From positions 1-32,569 of the forward strand of contig DAIDGS010000130.1 of the NCBI GenBank assembly GCA_027459845.1: DNA of 32,569 bases. Direction: 5' to 3'. This document shows, piece after piece, positions 29,293 through 32,569 of this stretch. Position 1 is the first letter of the stretch. The number at the start of each line of letters is the position of its first letter. The notes under the pieces were generated by a model. It ran no database searches. It worked only from the letters and a program-made list of their open reading frames with translations, and had not been told where the DNA came from. The DNA is from Vulcanimicrobiota bacterium (GTDB lineage Bacteria; Vulcanimicrobiota; Vulcanimicrobiia; Vulcanimicrobiales; Vulcanimicrobiaceae). The position numbers were made by a program, and so were the translations under genes.

Positions 29293-31953
29293 TCAGCCGC
29301 GTGCGGCGGAGTCTCTGATGAGCGACCGGAGCGCCTCGTCGTCTTCGAGATCAGGCGTAAGCTCGATGCCGAGTTCGTCGCGTAGCGCCCGGCGATACGC
29401 GAGGTACTCGCGACGTGCTTCGGCATCCTCGCCCATCTGAACGTGCGCACGCATGGAGATCGCATACGCACGCTCATCGCAGGCATCGCGTGCAATCTGA
29501 AGCCCGGCGTATCGCAACGCGGCGGCTGCGTCCCCACGGTCAAGTGCGTCCTCACCGAGCGTCACCAACGCCGAACCGCGAAGCGCGTCGATCCGCCGCG
29601 CGATCGCCTCGAACCAGTCGAGATCGTCCCAGTCATGGGCGCGCCGCTCGATGCCGGCCACCAGCGCTTCGAGCGACTGTCGCATCGGAGGCCCGAGGGG
29701 TTTACTTCGGGCGGTTTGCCGCACCAGCATCTCCGCGGCATCGAGGTCGATCGCATGGGCGGCGGCGATGCGGTAGCGTCCGCCGTCGTAGACGATAGCG
29801 CTCGGATGCGCGGCCTTACGGATCGCCGCAATGTGAACGCGCAGCGCGTTCTGCATGCAATGCGGATCTCGATCCGGCCAAACGCGGGCCGCGAGTTCCT
29901 CACCGCGCAGCGGCGCACCCGCGAGCGCCAGCGCCAGAACGACTTGGCGCGGGCGACCCTTAAGCGCGAGCGGTTCGCCCTCCCACGCGATCGTGGCATC
30001 CAACACGTTGACGGTAAGCAGGCCTACGCCGCGGGGCGCGGCGGCGTAGCGCCGACAGAACCCATGCAACATTCCCAAGTCCTCGCCGCCGCGCGCGAGC
30101 TCGGCGACGGCCCGCTGCAACGCCGGCGATGCCACCGCGTCCACCAGGGTGGCGGCCGAGGCGAGATGCTGCGCCGCTTCGGGTGCATTGAGGAGGGCCA
30201 GCGCAAGGTGCGCGAGCACCGAAAAGAACCGGCGCGCGGTCCGTTCGGCCTCGACCAGCGCGTGCCGCGCGTACCAGCGCGCCCGTCCGCCTTCGCGCGC
30301 GATCGAGGCGGCGATCAAATACGCATAGACCCGAACTTGAGCCGTTTCGTAGCCTTCGACATTCGGAGGATCGGCATCGCGAACGGCACGCAAGAAAAAA
30401 TCCGAGCCAACGTCGGCCGGCGTCCGCTCGAGCCGATCGAGCGCGTCGCGCAAGGCTACGTCGTCGCCGTAGAACCACGCGAAGAACGAGGCCATCATGA
30501 GCGTCTCCGCCAGGTGCATGTGCTGCTGGGCGCCGGTCAGCGTCTCGATCGCGATCAGCAACTCGTCGCGCTGAGCCGGCCAGTTGCCCTGCACGCCATA
30601 GACATAGGCCGCAATTGCCGCGAAGCTAACCCGGCCGTACGGATCGAGGATGAACGGTCCTAGACGAAGGCGCAGATCGTCGACGTCGATCCGTTCGTCG
30701 TGACTTGCGCGAATGAACGCGTCGCAATAGTCGAGTGCGAGCCGATACTCGGGACGGCCTTCACACATTGCCGTCTGCGCAGCGAGCACGCGGCGCGCGT
30801 CGTCGAAGCGCCCGAAATACGCATACCGCGAGACGATGGCGATAATCGCCAGCGCGCGCACGTCCACCGGCACCGAAGCAGGCGCTCGCGTCAGTGCCTG
30901 TTCGGCTAGGGTAAACCAGTGATTGTAGTCGCGCGTGTACAGTTGCTCGATCGCGGCCACGTTGAAGATTGCAAGGTTGTCGACGAGAGCCGCGGTATCG
31001 AGTTTCGCCGCCACCAGCGCATCGTCGCTCGAGATCGCGGTCATGGATGCGAACGTTTGGCGACCGTAGGCGGCGTTGGCGGCACGATCGTCGCCGGCCC
31101 GGAGGTGCCAGCTCGCCGCCCGTAGCGGGAGCCCGGCCCCTTCGAAGGCCTGCGCCAGCGCGGCGGCCGCGGCCCGTGCATCGGGTGCCAGACGGCGATG
31201 AATCGCGCGCTTCAGGAGCGGATGCAGACGATACGTGCCTGTGGCAGGGTCGCGTGTGAGAAAACCATCCTCGATTTCCTCGAGCGCCGACTCGGTGCGG
31301 GCGGCCAGCAGGACTTCGACGTCGGCGAGGGCGATCGGCGCGAAGCTCGTGAGGAGGACGAGGCTTCGCGCTGCGTCGGAGAGCGACGCGATCGCTTCGT
31401 CGGTAACGTAGCGAGCAAACGAAACGTCCGCCAGGGCGTCGAGATCGTCGAGCGCACGAGCGAGATCGCTCTCGTGCGCTCGCCGGCGCGCCAGCGCGAG
31501 CGCCGCCGGCCAGCCCAGCGTGACTGCGTGGAGCCCGTCGATTTGGGCGTCGGTGGGTTCGATGGCTGCCATGAAATCCGCAATCCGCGCCGACGTAAAG
31601 CGGAGGTCGCCAGCGCGCAGGACGCGGGTTTCGCTCGGCAACGCAATGGAAAACGGTATGACCAGCGGCCGGCGCGAGGCAACGATCGTGAGGGCGCCGG
31701 GCCGGTCGAGCGCGACCTGACGCAGGGCGTTATCGAGATCGGGGAGGCGCTCGGCATCGTCGACCACGACGCTGGGTGTCTCGCGCGCAAAGGCAGACGC
31801 CATCGCACTCTTCCCGAAACCGGCTGGGGCGACCAGCAGGAGCAGTTTCGGGGGAGCGCGGCGCACCGATTCCATGAGGTCCGACCCGACAAAGTCGCCG
31901 ACGAGCACGCTGGGGCGCTCTTGCACGCCCTCGCCGGCTTTCCTGTGCGCCAA
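29293..31953 (-). CDS. MalT-like STAND ATPase regulator with C-terminal SARP/BTAD DNA-binding module
   Basis: The protein has 886 residues. The N-terminal STAND-type ATPase has Walker A APAGFGKSA (42-50) and VVVDDAERLPDLDNAL, and is followed by a winged-helix region with YRLHPLLKRAI as in MalT. A helical TPR-like middle (about 280-620) follows. Instead of a LuxR helix-turn-helix, the C-terminus has an OmpR-type winged helix (about 640-725, RPRQVVLALALAGAPLRGEELAARVWPD ... LRVHIAAIRK). A bacterial transcriptional activator domain follows (about 730-880, ending in REYLAYRRALRDELGIELTP). This is the SARP arrangement fused to a MalT sensor. The start is TTG with a weak ribosome site; GTG 31926 is an alternative. 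A SARP-like direct repeat lies just upstream. Confidence 0.88.
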   Translation of the reverse strand: MAHRKAGEGVQERPSVLVGDFVGSDLMESVRRAPPKLLLLVAPAGFGKSAMASAFARETPSVVVDDAERLPDLDNALRQVALDRPGALTIVASRRPLVIPFSIALPSETRVLRAGDLRFTSARIADFMAAIEPTDAQIDGLHAVTLGWPAALALARRRAHESDLARALDDLDALADVSFARYVTDEAIASLSDAARSLVLLTSFAPIALADVEVLLAARTESALEEIEDGFLTRDPATGTYRLHPLLKRAIHRRLAPDARAAAAALAQAFEGAGLPLRAASWHLRAGDDRAANAAYGRQTFASMTAISSDDALVAAKLDTAALVDNLAIFNVAAIEQLYTRDYNHWFTLAEQALTRAPASVPVDVRALAIIAIVSRYAYFGRFDDARRVLAAQTAMCEGRPEYRLALDYCDAFIRASHDERIDVDDLRLRLGPFILDPYGRVSFAAIAAYVYGVQGNWPAQRDELLIAIETLTGAQQHMHLAETLMMASFFAWFYGDDVALRDALDRLERTPADVGSDFFLRAVRDADPPNVEGYETAQVRVYAYLIAASIAREGGRARWYARHALVEAERTARRFFSVLAHLALALLNAPEAAQHLASAATLVDAVASPALQRAVAELARGGEDLGMLHGFCRRYAAAPRGVGLLTVNVLDATIAWEGEPLALKGRPRQVVLALALAGAPLRGEELAARVWPDRDPHCMQNALRVHIAAIRKAAHPSAIVYDGGRYRIAAAHAIDLDAAEMLVRQTARSKPLGPPMRQSLEALVAGIERRAHDWDDLDWFEAIARRIDALRGSALVTLGEDALDRGDAAAALRYAGLQIARDACDERAYAISMRAHVQMGEDAEARREYLAYRRALRDELGIELTPDLEDDEALRSLIRDSAARG

Positions 31954-31954
31954 T

Positions 31955-31985
31955 TAACTGCCCGCTAACTGCGCGGCTCTACGAT
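31955..31985 (+). promoter_or_regulatory. SARP-like direct heptamer repeat with adjoining -10 box
   Basis: TAACTGC occurs at 31955-31961 and 31966-31972, separated by four bases, an 11-bp period. Seven bases later, TACGAT (31980-31985) resembles a -10 element facing the secreted gene at 32099. Known SARP activators bind direct heptamers with 11-bp spacing about eight bases before the -10 and need no good -35. The neighbouring gene encodes a SARP-type module. The site could also affect that gene, since it ends two bases before its TTG start. Confidence 0.45.
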
Positions 31986-32098
31986 GCGGCCGGACAGTGC
32001 GCGTCGTCGGTGCGCTCGGTTCGAGCCGTGCAGCCGGCAGCACCGCGGGCTCGGGTGCCGTCCGTACAGCTCGCGTATGTGGAAAGGACATGGGCTTT

Positions 32099-32569
32099 AT
32101 GCTTCAAGGAGTTCGCGCGGTCGCCGGCGCCGTTGCCATGGCGACCGCTATTGCCGCCGCTACGAGCGGTGTTTCGGGGGCGACGACGTCGCCGGCTAAG
32201 CAGGTCGCCGCGTTGGTGGGGACGTGGACCTGCGTCACGCAGACCAGCAACCACCGGACGTACCGTGAAAAGGACGTCTACGCGATGTTCGGCCCCTGGG
32301 TTCGCGATGTCGGGACCTACCCGGCTGCGTACGGCCAGCCCGCCGGCACGTTGGTTGGCTATGTCGGCTACGATGCCAAGCATCGGCGGTGGATTTCAAC
32401 CTCGGTCGATACCGGCAACGGCTACGCTCTCTACTACAGCACCTCGCCGTCCCTCGACGGCTCGCGGTGGTCGGACGGCTATCCGCGCGGCAGTGGAGGC
32501 GCCGTCTTTCGCCTGCACGGCACGACCCAGTACACGCTCGACGCAAGCGGAACCAGCCACGGCAAAGCC
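32099..32569 (+). CDS. Secreted protein of unknown family, truncated by the right edge
   Basis: The open frame has 157 codons and runs off the window with no stop. ATG 32099 is preferred because AAAGGA (32083-32088) lies ten bases upstream; the in-frame ATG at 32090 would leave only one base. A Sec signal peptide is clear (MLQGVRAVAGAVAMATAIAAATSGVSGA). The mature part begins VAALVGTWTCVTQ and has alternating hydrophobic strands with many Gly, Tyr and Trp (VGYVGYDAKHRRWISTSVDTG, YALYYSTSP), suggesting a lipocalin-like or similar small beta-barrel. That is inference, and no family is recognised. Its 5' leader has two small hairpins (GCTCG/CGAGC at 32014-32026 and GCACC/GGTGC at 32040-32058). 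It may be controlled by the divergent SARP-type regulator. Confidence 0.75.
   Translation, partial: MLQGVRAVAGAVAMATAIAAATSGVSGATTSPAKQVAALVGTWTCVTQTSNHRTYREKDVYAMFGPWVRDVGTYPAAYGQPAGTLVGYVGYDAKHRRWISTSVDTGNGYALYYSTSPSLDGSRWSDGYPRGSGGAVFRLHGTTQYTLDASGTSHGKA

Follow-up and report, generated by a model that had tools for sequence, protein, structure and literature searches.

A probable SARP-like operator in the divergent gap of an AfsR-like regulator with reversed domain order in Eremiobacterota

This study analyzed a stretch of 32,569 nt (the window), which is the whole of contig C130, with a focus on a direct repeat in the gap between a regulator gene and a divergently transcribed gene. The results indicate that the repeat pair is probably the operator of the regulator, which would activate the divergent promoter in the manner of AfsR; we infer binding, activation rather than repression, the transcription start, and the signal.

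The sequence-only reading had described two TAACTGC heptamers four bases apart, with an 11-bp periodicity and a TACGAT seven bases further on, and this arrangement was found exactly at 31955-31985 (Table 1). Positions 31955-31972 read TAACTGCCCGCTAACTGC, that is, TAACTGC-CCGC-TAACTGC, and the 7-nt stretch GCGGCTC separates the second heptamer from TACGAT. TACGAT forms a fair -10 element, and a -35 element is not recognisable. When the -10 element is set at -12 to -7, both TAA cores fall within the span of the afs box, which extends from -40 to -19 (PMC10936776). According to the SARP rule, repeats lie 11 or 22 bp apart and the 3' repeat is 8 bp from the -10 element (PMC10936776); in the window, the period is 11 bp and the heptamer-to-TACGAT gap is 7 nt. 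The SARP-like geometry that had been proposed was thereby borne out, and the same layout occurs at many related regulators.

Within the window, the repeat pair had no other match even when three mismatches were allowed. The proposed genome scan for TAACTGC pairs returned this single exact match across all 2.72 Mb. Near matches in the whole genome were not enriched relative to a reversed-pattern control (27 + 28 versus 43 + 73); a genome-wide regulon of such pairs was rejected because the genome holds no such set. Among dinucleotide-shuffled versions of the 136-bp gap, 1.6% contained an exact 7-mer pair with a period of 11, and 4.4% contained one when periods of 10-12 were allowed. In 414 kb of the genome, sampled as stretches, 68 exact 7-mer pairs at period 11 were counted, which is the background frequency predicted by a Markov model. 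When TANNNT was added 6-8 nt downstream of the pair, one occurrence was found in the 414 kb, at 31955-31985, and the pattern TAA-N8-TAA-N11-TANNNT likewise occurred once, at the same position. Taken alone, the repeat pair is weak evidence; the comparison with other genomes makes the case strong.

Table 1. Features of the divergent gap and its flanking genes.
Feature	Position	Strand	Remark
Upstream heptamer TAACTGC	31955..31961	+	TAA core at -37..-35 if +1 = 31992; TAATTGC in the G073 ortholog
Downstream heptamer TAACTGC, 11 bp on	31966..31972	+	TAA core at -26..-24; TAACTGC kept in G073
Putative -10 element TACGAT	31980..31985	+	7 nt past the second heptamer, 11 nt past its TAA core
GGCGAGG, upstream of regulator start	31929..31935	-	Possible ribosome-binding site; conserved in G073
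Regulator gene (STAND-type ATPase, C-terminal OmpR-like winged helix, BTAD)	29293..31926	-	Likely start GTG 31926
C-terminal SARP-like domain (winged helix and BTAD), residues 640-886	29296..30036	-	Pfam BTAD, AlphaFold, PDB matches
Inferred 5' leader, about 107 nt to ATG 32099	31992..32098	+	+1 inferred
Shine-Dalgarno-like GGAAAGGA of the secreted gene	32081..32088	+	By eye
Divergent gene, small secreted DUF1579-like protein	32099..32569, on to position 174 of contig C179 (L033)	+
Terminator-like hairpin, stem GGGCGAGCGG then TTTT	L033:184-218 (contig C179)		Between the secreted and multicopper oxidase genes

One close ortholog of the regulator was identified in the genomes covered (99 from the family, 117 from the class); it belongs to G073, a genome of another genus. 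Its two parts, on separate contigs, are 52% and 60% identical to the regulator, and its contig is JASHXG010000108.1, from a Candidatus Eremiobacterota MAG. G073 is the only ortholog with a sequenced upstream region; G115 carries a partial homolog whose contig ends inside the gene and could not be linked to the DNA upstream. Reading away from the regulator, the G073 gap contains TAATTGC-CGGT-TAACTGC-GGCATGC-AAGGAT, and its alignment with the window gap scored 20, compared with 8.1 +/- 1.2 and a maximum of 14 in 2000 shuffles. The comparison of the gap in relatives, which had been suggested as a check, therefore supports the proposed link to the neighbouring regulator, whose only close ortholog keeps the repeat. 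The conserved block extends toward the regulator start through CAGGAAA and GGCGAGG. TAAYTGC-N4-TAAYTGC had three exact matches in the 99 genomes, in the window gap, in the G073 gap, and in G078, the last of which was rejected as an operator because it lies inside a coding sequence. The -10 equivalent of G073, AAGGAT, also resembles a Shine-Dalgarno site of the oxidase gene there, whose ATG follows after 5 nt, and a promoter at that position would therefore need to be nearly leaderless. A scan of GTDB contigs with the regulator alone as the query returned no match, and the scan with a two-sequence alignment returned only the G073 contig itself.

We further compared the upstream regions of distant STAND/BTAD regulators, which are 24-35% identical in the C-terminal domain. 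These regions contain tandem 11-bp repeats reading (T/C)GTAA in the divergent sense, and alignment on the last TAA gave TAA-N8-TAA-N11-TANNNT, or N22, one helical turn further, where a degenerate repeat unit intervenes. The N11 distance between TAA core and TACGAT in the window equals that at L008, L011, L013, L017, L020, and L107. Pointing away from the regulator, the strict motif (N11 or N22) occurred at 8 of the 27 discovery regulators against 0.01 expected, a partly circular count given that several of them had been used to see the rule; L020 is among the eight, though it had been missed by eye. Because of this circularity, a held-out set was used, and in its small numbers the strict motif pointed away from 2 of 16 regulators (0.01 expected). 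Many related regulators in the two sets are without the strict motif, and none in either set has it in the opposite direction, toward the regulator. Every match thus points away from the regulator, in agreement with the direction toward the divergent gene that had been assigned from the sequence; the window fits the strict motif fully and G073 fits it except at the first base of the -10 element. In a separate scan of same-class genomes, TTACA-N6-TTACA (regulator strand) had 45 matches, 12 of which (nine operators) were on the strand of a STAND/BTAD regulator and no more than 400 nt upstream of it, whereas 0.006 were expected. We define the class here by a STAND ATPase with a C-terminal winged helix and BTAD and by a divergent-gap operator at the rule spacing, and the window regulator belongs to it. 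What had been proposed as a small two-gene regulator-effector system is instead one case within a wider class of promoters linked to such regulators in the phylum.

Tandem 11-bp repeats (NGTAA in the divergent sense) were observed at L004, L005, L008-L015, L017, L020, L022, L104, L106, L107, and L277. Several of these loci have TANNNT at a fixed helical phase, and seven share an extra element, CTTTCCTGGGACTTACGGCCTA or close to it. The divergent partners of the STAND/BTAD regulators are often small LuxR-type proteins and otherwise lipoprotein-like proteins, a winged-helix protein, or a tannase-like esterase. A small LuxR-type (GerE) HTH protein is divergent to the regulator at L004, L008, L010, L012, L013, L014, and L106, with the GerE HTH assigned by Pfam in two of these genes and by similarity in the remainder. 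On contig C10 of G026, the repeat block TTACAACGGAGTTACA and its flanks were observed near 124418 and 114808 (L280 and L281), about 10 kb apart. One copy lies beside a STAND regulator and the other before a cytochrome c-like gene, where no adjoining regulator gene was seen; this gene is a possible second target.

The open reading frame of the window regulator (886 aa) formally opens at TTG 31953, and the in-frame stop before this TTG falls within the first heptamer. This start is doubtful, and GTG 31926 is more likely, a preference based on the N-terminus of the ortholog and the shared GGCGAGG. The Walker A motif of the ATPase is at residues 42-48. BTAD scored above the Pfam cut-off, and the winged helix, below the cut-off by sequence, was clear in the AlphaFold model of the C-terminal 247 residues (pLDDT 90.4). 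The best PDB matches of the modelled domain were 8k60 and 8hvr, in which AfsR is bound at its promoter (TM 0.77-0.81), and EmbR was also matched. An OmpR-like winged helix followed by BTAD, which marks SARP membership, is present in the regulator. The earlier identification of an adjacent SARP-type regulator consequently stands for the fold; the protein is not a classical SARP, because its SARP domain is not N-terminal and lies at the C-terminal end of the 886 residues, behind the STAND ATPase. It is best read as AfsR-like with reversed domain order.

In an alignment with AfsR, the backbone contacts R87, R94, and K95 as well as W74 were retained in the window regulator, and the AfsR base contacts T88 and R92 (PMC10936776) corresponded to V and A in both the window and G073. 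The recognition helix is nearly identical in these two proteins (NALRVHIAA[I/V]RKA) and differs from that of the other regulators, which have GTAA in their operators. In the remaining regulators for which an operator is recognised, the R92 position is occupied by R and the 3' repeat carries GTAA, whereas the window and G073 have A at this position and (C/T)TAA in the 3' repeat. Helix NALRVHIAAIRKA would go with repeat TTAACTGC, and helix NALSVCLHRLR would go with TGTAAGC. This correspondence between helix and operator, drawn from one ortholog pair, is suggestive only.

The main rival explanation is that the regulator binds the repeats mainly for autoregulation, repressing or tuning its own promoter, with effects on the divergent side being secondary. 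The operator occupies the stretch 29-46 nt upstream of the likely regulator start, and the block conserved with G073 runs toward this start. At L004, L012, and L014, the repeats come almost up to the start of the regulator gene of the respective locus. No promoter of the regulator itself was identified in the divergent gap, and the regulator may therefore also repress its own gene. However, the -10-like element at fixed phase occurs on the divergent side only, with no strict match toward the regulator, and no regulator gene was seen next to the G026 block beside the cytochrome c-like gene. We therefore consider autoregulation as the main role unlikely. The repeats could also be the site of another winged-helix factor, either an OmpR-type response regulator or another BTAD protein of the genome. 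OmpR-type factors likewise use 11-bp direct repeats, and the rest of the genome contains four further BTAD matches; however, the motif follows the regulator and proteins related to it, the two exact matches that are intergenic in the 99 genomes are both at its orthologs, and 1-mismatch sites never coincide with the oxidase genes found elsewhere, which renders this explanation quite improbable. That the pair is a chance repeat in a GC-rich gap is scarcely credible, since its unremarkable frequency in shuffles and across the genome is outweighed by the conservation in G073 and the family-wide geometry.

The secreted protein had been proposed as the likely target. The end of the window overlaps contig C179 exactly over 141 bp, as assembly k-mers leave, and the secreted gene running off the window was therefore completed on C179. 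The protein has 170 aa from the in-frame ATG 32090 and 167 aa from ATG 32099, and its match to Pfam PF07617 (DUF1579; E 0.011, 16.0 bits) does not reach the gathering cut-off of 25.2. Two hairpins had been described in its leader; they were rejected as regulatory RNA because the leader of about 105 nt is no more stable than shuffled sequence (z = +0.33). Nine nucleotides past the stop of the secreted gene, a terminator-like hairpin begins (-27.4 kcal/mol, z -2.7), beyond which, outside the window, lies a multicopper oxidase gene followed by a BlaI/M56 pair. This pair, a BlaI/CopY-like repressor and an M56 peptidase at L033:2478-4045, may point to a link with copper or the cell wall.

In G073, the gene divergent to the regulator encodes a homolog (48%) of the oxidase on C179, and this gene is followed by one for a small secreted protein that is distantly similar to that of the window (23%, E 0.002). 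The secreted gene was rejected as a conserved partner, because related genes (identity of 47-48% and lower) are not beside the regulator, and the conserved neighbour is the multicopper oxidase beyond the window. The oxidase was in turn rejected as the carrier of the motif, because its relatives elsewhere occur without the regulator and without the motif. The target of the regulator may thus exceed the secreted protein and include the oxidase gene, whose co-transcription with the secreted gene is uncertain because of the intervening hairpin.

On the proposed mechanism, two copies of the regulator would bind side by side, with one C-terminal winged helix on each 11-bp repeat, and would recruit RNA polymerase to the promoter with TACGAT. 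This recruitment would turn on the gene of the secreted DUF1579-like protein. The oxidase gene may be turned on as well, either by read-through of the terminator-like hairpin or by an additional promoter. Sensing may be the task of the N-terminal STAND ATPase/TPR part, which would act as the switch.

Most known SARP operators come from antibiotic clusters of Streptomyces. MalT-type STAND regulators, which end in a LuxR-type HTH, are weakly similar to the N-terminal part of the window regulator (NCBIfam PRK04841, E 1.9e-5, far below the cut-off), whereas the window regulator ends in a winged helix and BTAD. EmbR of Mycobacterium tuberculosis (2fez, 2ff4) has the same winged helix and BTAD fold (TM 0.76) but carries an extra FHA domain and is without a STAND ATPase. 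The SARP domain of PimR is N-terminal. AfsR of Streptomyces coelicolor has the same fold at 24% identity, combines ATPase and TPR regions in one protein as the window regulator does, and acts at the afs box, in which two 11-bp direct repeats lie over the -35 region before a suboptimal -10 element, as in the window (PMC10936776). The domain order of the window regulator is the opposite, with the ATPase first and the SARP domain last, and the heptamer, the phylum (Actinomycetota versus Eremiobacterota), and the target (afsS versus, as proposed here, the secreted protein or oxidase) also differ. The PimR-type SARP-LAL regulators share with the window heptamers with 4-bp spacers and a large ATP-binding regulator (PMC5930380). 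Relatives of PimR conserve the operator between the regulator and its target, a LuxR-type regulator gene (PMC5930380), and this PimR/PimM arrangement of the gap is resembled at L004, L008, L010, and L012-L014. The PimR site, a triple CGGCAAG, lies upstream of the -35 element (PMC5930380), whereas the two repeats of the window overlap the -35 region and the proposed target is secreted.

On balance, we favour the view that a lineage of reversed SARPs exists in Eremiobacterota, in which every regulator has an operator of its own at a divergent promoter, one spacing rule holds, and the heptamers co-vary with the recognition helix; the targets would comprise LuxR-type regulators, lipoproteins, a tannase-like esterase, and oxidases. 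No paper describing such a class was found among the open-licence literature. That SARP geometry and fold are combined with the opposite order of domains at many regulators in a phylum still mostly uncultured suggests a regulatory principle of wider reach. If this view is true, the operator would be readable next to each regulator gene, which would provide an entry into the regulation of an uncultured group: links between regulators and targets could be drawn from sequence alone, and recognition helices could be paired with their operators to test how BTAD winged helices read DNA.
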